From Thermoplasmata archaeon (GTDB lineage: Archaea > Thermoplasmatota > Thermoplasmata > Lutacidiplasmatales > UBA184), in NCBI GenBank assembly GCA_022750455.1, contig JAKIVR010000012.1, forward strand, positions 1 through 49,057: a stretch of DNA of 49,057 nucleotides. The letters are read 5' to 3'. The position numbers were made by a program, and so were the translations under genes. Shown in pieces: positions 10,919-11,049 of the stretch (position 1 is the stretch's first letter; each line of letters opens with the position of its first letter). Below the pieces are notes generated by a model that was not told the DNA's origin, did not search any database, and saw only the letters and a program-made list of their open reading frames with translations.

Positions 10919-11025
10919 GGCCGGGACCGAGACTCTCTCAGCTCGGGGGTTGGCCCCGCGCTGTTTTGAACCCGGGTCGAGGGATCCACAGTCCCCCAGG
11001 ATAGGCCAAACTACCCCATCCCGGC
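10919..11025 (-). tRNA. tRNA-His (GTG) with a probable ~32-nt intron in the T loop
   Basis: Read on the minus strand. Acceptor GCCGGGA (11025-11019) pairs with TCCCGGC (10926-10920). The D arm is GGGT...TCCT. The anticodon stem GGGGA/TCCCT encloses loop CTGTGGA, so the anticodon is GTG. The variable loop is CGAC. The T stem CCGGG pairs with CTCGG (one G-T pair), but the two halves are separated by 39 bases instead of seven. Removing 32 bases (about 10964-10933) restores the loop TTCAAAT. The insert can fold as CAGC-g-CGGGG...CCCCG-a-GCTG. The discriminator is C73 and the genome encodes G at -1 (11026), the histidine identity pair. A TATA-like CTCTTTTAG lies 27 bases upstream. The exact splice sites are uncertain. 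CCA is not encoded. Confidence 0.85.
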
Positions 11026-11049
11026 CGTATCCCGTTGGACTCTCGGGCG

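Follow-up and report, generated by a model that had tools for sequence, protein, structure and literature searches.

Putative bulge-helix-bulge introns in the T loop of tRNA-His and other tRNAs of Thermoplasmatota

How can a gene encode a conventional tRNA-His when the two strands of its T stem lie 39 nt apart instead of the usual 7? This question is raised by a locus on the minus strand of the window, the whole 49,057-nucleotide stretch of DNA analysed here, which belongs to the genome of a soil archaeon (a draft MAG, 92.75% complete, as nearly all the genomes compared with it are draft MAGs). An earlier note on this DNA had drawn every arm of a tRNA-His(GTG), G-1 and C73 included, had pointed to the spacing of the T-stem strands and had proposed that deleting 32 bases restores TTCAAAT, and the coordinates given below bear out all three observations.

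The interrupted gene and its predicted splice junction

The tRNA-His(GTG) gene occupies positions 10919 to 11026 of the minus strand, with G-1 at 11026, C73 at 10919 and no encoded CCA. The earlier note had placed it correctly, starting at G1 (11025) and thereby omitting G-1, and the true length is 108 nt. The 5' exon (10965 to 11026, G-1 to A59) ends in TTCAAA, with U54 at 10970, A57 at 10967 and A59 at 10965, and the 3' exon (10919 to 10932) consists of U60, the T-stem strand CTCGG, the acceptor strand TCCCGGC and C73. Between A59 and U60, that is, at site 59/60, lies the 32-nt T-loop insert ACAGCGCGGGGCCAACCCCCGAGCTGAGAGAG (10933 to 10964), flanked by the T-stem strands CCGGG (10975-10971) and CTCGG (10931-10927). 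Removal of the insert restores all arms and loop sizes of the tRNA, as is characteristic of a bulge-helix-bulge (BHB) intron, including an acceptor stem formed by 11025-11019 and 10926-10920. The anticodon loop, with GTG at 10989-10987, is whole, which sets the insert apart from a canonical 37/38 intron, and the exons stand in normal order at a single locus, which sets the gene apart from permuted and split tRNAs. ARAGORN detected the gene with a wrong, forced 3' end (10951), and Rfam at its gathering threshold missed it. The folded precursor contains all arms plus an intron hairpin, with a z-score of -1.9 that is unpersuasive by itself; what is persuasive is the conservation of the interrupted gene.

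We aligned 35 interrupted tRNA-His copies, 34 from the family of the window genome (f1, represented by 95 genomes in a class sample of 400) and one from family f16. Their introns, of 30-33 nt, are diverged, their exons are near-invariant and the TTCAAA that ends the 5' exon is invariant. A single BHB scheme fits all 35, with two 3-nt bulges, each with a predicted 2/1 cut, and a four-position core, of which at least three pairs are kept in 34 copies. The outer helix of this scheme is the T stem, the core pairs U54 U55 C56 R57 with intron positions -3 to -6, the inner helix is the intron stem, and the bulges are A58 A59/i1 on the 5' side and NN/U60 on the 3' side (the slash marking the cut). In the window, the inner helix is formed by CAGCGCGGGG (10954 to 10963) and CCCCGAGCTG (10939 to 10948), whose pairs show two-sided changes across genomes, and the central helix by U54 U55 C56 A57 (10967 to 10970) and the intron segment AGAG (-6 to -3; 10935 to 10938), with U54-G, U55-A and C56-G paired and A57-A mismatched. 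The 5' bulge A58 A59/A1 (10964 to 10966) and the 3' bulge A G/U60 (10932 to 10934) place the predicted cuts, by BHB geometry, at 10965/10964 and 10933/10932, all on the minus strand.

The earlier note had recognised the intron hairpin, which is indeed present, and had assigned to its CAGC/GCTG helix a role in the BHB. The alignment rules out that helix as the BHB core, since its sequence is that of the variable inner stem. Nor does the note's description of the pairing as something other than a clean canonical BHB survive the comparison, the geometry being canonical with UUCA (54-57)/AGAG as its core and a single A57-A mismatch in the window copy. Despite the divergence of its sequence, the hairpin is preserved by compensatory changes, and in the 35 tRNA-His copies pairing is kept through two-sided changes at nine positions, all within the intron stem. 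The register was checked by sliding the structure along 29 tRNAs with T-loop introns, drawn from several isotypes: 92% of cells were paired in register, compared with 34-54% after a shift of one to three columns.

The central helix was examined in 129 distinct T-loop introns from many families, gathered with a scanner that reads only the T stem, the acceptor and TTCRA and is blind to intron bases. Position 57 is A in some of these tRNAs and G in others, and intron position -6 varies with it, being C in 45 of the 49 introns with G57 and in none of the 80 with A57 (Fisher p about 1e-30, a value that ignores shared ancestry). The neighbouring positions -7 and -8 show little association with position 57 (p 0.07 and 0.01, respectively). 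Intron -5 is invariably G and -4 invariably a purine, while -3 is a purine in 128 of the 129. The covariation of position 57 with intron -6 is that of a central helix joining exon and intron. Its fourth pair is standard in 84 of the 129 introns and mismatched in the rest (about a third), the window copy included; the A57 tRNAs comprise 37 with A-U, 39 with A-G and 4 with A-A at this position, and their core, as in the tRNA-His of the window, often consists of three base pairs and a mismatch. The frequency of the A-G mismatch suggests that the splicing endonuclease (EndA) may have some tolerance at this position.

On this evidence, the insert is very probably a BHB tRNA intron at 59/60, the BHB-type T-loop intron in a Thermoplasmatota tRNA-His that the earlier note had proposed, and it would be removed by the alpha'2 endonuclease of the genome. 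Sequence is the basis for its location, conservation, structure, covariation and distribution, as well as for the enzyme type and the introns common to several tRNAs, and it is from these that we infer cleavage, ligation and the direction and mechanism of spread.

T-loop introns across tRNAs, families and the phylum

A covariance model built from the 35 aligned copies was run over the 400 class genomes. Counted from its matches, 83 of the 95 f1 genomes carry a full-length interrupted tRNA-His; the remaining 12 are without a full-length match, in two because the contig ends inside the gene, the others showing no recognisable tRNA-His. Uninterrupted tRNA-His was not found in any f1 genome among the listed high-scoring matches, and a DNA search of 60 relatives recovered the interrupted gene in almost all f1 genomes. 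The earlier note had named a second, intact tRNA-His(GTG) as the finding that would speak against it, and neither the model searches nor the DNA searches detected one in the window genome. Comparison with related genomes, proposed in the same note, shows that the interruption is shared by all 83 full-length f1 copies and that sister families often have the empty site, which in the tRNA-His of other class families frequently reads TTCAAATCTCGG or TTCAATTCCCGG. The tRNA-His T-loop intron is also present in f16, f20 and f23. In two genomes of f2, a sister family of f1 in the same order, and in one genome of f15, the T loop of tRNA-His is uninterrupted and the intron sits instead in the anticodon loop, at 37/38.

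From the names of the matching MAGs (UBA184, AcS/SubAcS), we infer that f1 corresponds to Ca. Lutacidiplasmatales/UBA184 of the Thermoplasmatota. AcS/SubAcS soil genomes have been placed in Ca. Lutacidiplasmatales in a study that applied tRNAscan-SE and in whose main text the word "intron" is absent (PMC9287336).

Model searches were also used to gather the other tRNAs of the window genome, with long matches classed by the positions of their T stem and acceptor, never by length alone. Among the 44 tRNA genes listed, at least 14 have a T-loop intron at the tRNA-His site (His, Glu-CTC, Arg-TCG, Asp-GTC, Arg-TCT, Gln-CTG, Asn-GTT, Ala-GGC, Gly-TCC, Ser-GCT, Ser-CGA, Ser-GGA, Lys-TTT and Leu-TAG), which rules out the tRNA-His intron as an isolated oddity. 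Lys-TTT and Leu-TAG have a D-loop insertion in addition to the T-loop intron; D-loop insertions, which we read as introns, were observed in Leu-TAG, Lys-TTT, Arg-GCG, Pro-TGG and initiator Met. In the Met, Tyr and Leu-TAA genes of the same genome, the anticodon loop contains a long insert that we read as a 37/38 intron.

Separately, two tRNA-Ile-GAT 3' halves lie 1.8 kb apart on contig C95 (1074-1139 and 2847-2911), with no recognisable 5' halves. A split tRNA-Ile is disfavoured because each relative has only one match to this gene, and the two halves resemble remnants left by an integrated element at its attachment site.

Classified representatives place T-loop introns in 23 of the class families sampled, f1 included, and, outside the class and within the phylum, in families f37, f47, f50 and f55. 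One further family, f8, has an Arg-TCT with a T-loop intron in eight classified genomes, and genome G038 of family f3 has T-loop introns of only 13-14 nt; the same tRNA genes of G038 also carry long anticodon-loop inserts. No clear T-loop intron was seen in the single representatives of f19 and f26. We propose that T-loop introns are old in Thermoplasmatota.

The splicing endonuclease and alternative explanations

Alpha'2 endonucleases are classed as narrow in reviews, and the characterised ones have been tied to the 37/38 site. The window genome has a single EndA gene, on contig C35, whose 353-aa product contains the PF01974 domain twice. When aligned to the enzymes of A. fulgidus and M. jannaschii, its catalytic residues (Y291, H299 and K330) are found in the second repeat only. 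Two fused repeats with the triad confined to the second are the hallmark of the alpha'2 type, to which this EndA belongs by sequence, and the identification of the enzyme, one of the checks the earlier note had suggested, is thereby provided. The CSL or ASL loop that marks the catalytic unit of (alpha-beta)2 and epsilon2 enzymes, an insertion between YGS and LSL, is absent at the sequence level from this EndA and from 30 other aligned EndAs, and most class representatives show two PF01974 matches in one frame. The first, non-catalytic repeat contains a PRGG.P.K.PS loop conserved in the window genome and its relatives. Most families that have T-loop introns share this loop, the representatives of f15 and f27 lack it, and it also occurs in f26, whose single representative showed no clear T-loop intron; it may possibly act as a specificity element, the association being one of correlation only.

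In the precursor, the T stem would serve as the outer helix and the intron hairpin as the inner helix, and UUCR (54-57) of the TPsiC loop would pair with intron positions -3 to -6, of the form (N)GAR, to create the central helix. The alpha'2 EndA would be expected to cut each 3-nt bulge 2/1, and a ligase would then join the exons and restore TTCAAAT. The sequence UUCRA is near-universal in tRNAs, so that the T loop of any tRNA would offer a ready half-site, which would account for the recurrence of one intron design at 59/60 in many different isoacceptors and for its copying between tRNA genes.

The earlier note had envisaged a real T-loop intron with a relaxed BHB, built on a CAGC/GCTG core with odd bulges and cut by a broad enzyme of the (alpha-beta)2 or epsilon2 type. 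Such a reading could appeal to the window copy, which has only three of the four core pairs, and to noncanonical introns elsewhere, which accompany broad-specificity endonucleases (PMC4090602). We nevertheless consider it improbable, given that CAGC/GCTG belongs to the variable inner stem rather than to a conserved core, that the (N)GARNN 3' end of the intron pairs with UUCR over 129 introns, and that the one EndA gene is of the alpha'2 type and devoid of the CSL/ASL insertion. Because the geometry of the T-loop introns is canonical, no relaxed enzyme type is needed, contrary to what that note had concluded.

An insert retained in the mature RNA, whether because the ribosome tolerates the enlarged T loop or because the gene is merely tRNA-like and has another role, is highly improbable. 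A T loop of 39 nt would break the elbow formed by the D loop and the T loop, the interrupted gene is the sole tRNA-His found in the window genome and its relatives, and a processing signal is the best explanation for the exon-intron covariation beside the predicted splice sites. The draft status of the MAG could be taken to favour an assembly artefact, a degenerate gene or the remnant of an element integrated in the T loop, an explanation whose likelihood is negligible when the same structure recurs in 83 f1 genomes and in other families and classes, with invariant exons that yield intact tRNAs once the intron is removed. The reading that we retain is that of a BHB intron at 59/60 predicted to be within the reach of an alpha'2 enzyme.

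Spread of T-loop introns and their place among archaeal tRNA introns

Identical introns are found in different tRNAs of one genome. In G432, a 45-nt intron is identical in Arg-CCT and Gly-TCC and a 16-nt intron is identical in Gln-CTG and Arg-TCT, and in G437 a 48-nt intron is common to Gly-TCC and Gly-CCC. In the window genome, the Ser-GCT and Arg-TCT introns, the best of 233 intron pairs over four genomes, are 84% identical, above all 1000 of 1000 structure-keeping shuffles. Identity between introns of different tRNAs indicates that T-loop introns spread, and for some lineages it supports copying between tRNA genes, by a route in which gene conversion is indistinguishable from reverse splicing. 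Tentatively, and with less confidence than we place in the intron itself, these introns may form a self-spreading Thermoplasmatota lineage: a minimal element of 13-48 nt, needing nothing more than a hairpin and a terminal (N)GARNN on its 3' side to match the universal UUCR of the TPsiC loop. Such an element would move by copying between tRNAs, with gene conversion or reverse splicing followed by reverse transcription as examples of a route, and would be tolerated since a strict alpha'2 enzyme would see a canonical BHB in any T loop.

Noncanonical positions and inter-tRNA spread of BHB introns are known in Thermoproteales (PMC4033280, PMC8450103). The noncanonical BHB introns of Thermoproteales, Thaumarchaeota and some Asgard archaea resemble those described here in being short, in their BHB junction, in occurring several per genome and in spreading between tRNAs (PMC4033280, PMC8450103, PMC11291895). 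They lie, however, at scattered positions and mostly accompany (alpha-beta)2 or epsilon2 enzymes where the enzymes are known, whereas in Thermoplasmatota site 59/60 dominates, the phylum is one of alpha'2 enzymes and the TPsiC motif itself takes part in the core helix. The permuted tRNAs of Thermofilum pendens and Cyanidioschyzon merolae share a BHB junction at exactly 59/60 (PMC3218864), but in these the 3' half precedes the 5' half, in contrast with the normal exon order of the window tRNA-His and its intervening intron. Compared with canonical 37/38 archaeal introns, the general BHB geometry is alike and the exon strand comes from the T loop, not from the anticodon loop. The alpha'2 enzymes of Archaeoglobus fulgidus and Thermoplasma acidophilum (PDB 1RLV/2GJW, 2OHC) likewise have fused PF01974 repeats with Y/H/K in the second only; the window EndA is about 50-65 aa longer, has the PRGG loop in its first repeat and, unlike these two enzymes, appears to count many T-loop BHBs among its natural substrates.

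Euryarchaea with α4 or α2 endonucleases have been described as having few tRNA introns, with a single intron at the canonical position (PMC4090602). No paper reporting tRNA introns of the T-loop kind in Thermoplasmatota was found in the open-access literature searched; single entries may exist in databases such as GtRNAdb. As far as this literature shows, two elements are new: an intron site in the T loop that extends across a phylum of the α'2 lineage, and a core whose exon half is supplied by the TΨC motif.

Many tRNA genes with T-loop introns are truncated or overlooked by ARAGORN and Rfam, and genomes can consequently seem to lack tRNAs. The presence of these introns in most sampled families of an α'2 phylum, and in about a third of the tRNA genes of the window genome, contrasts with the expectation set by reviews. 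If they are spliced as predicted, the type of endonuclease would constrain the geometry of the BHB rather than its position, and the TΨC loop would be a general entry site for introns.
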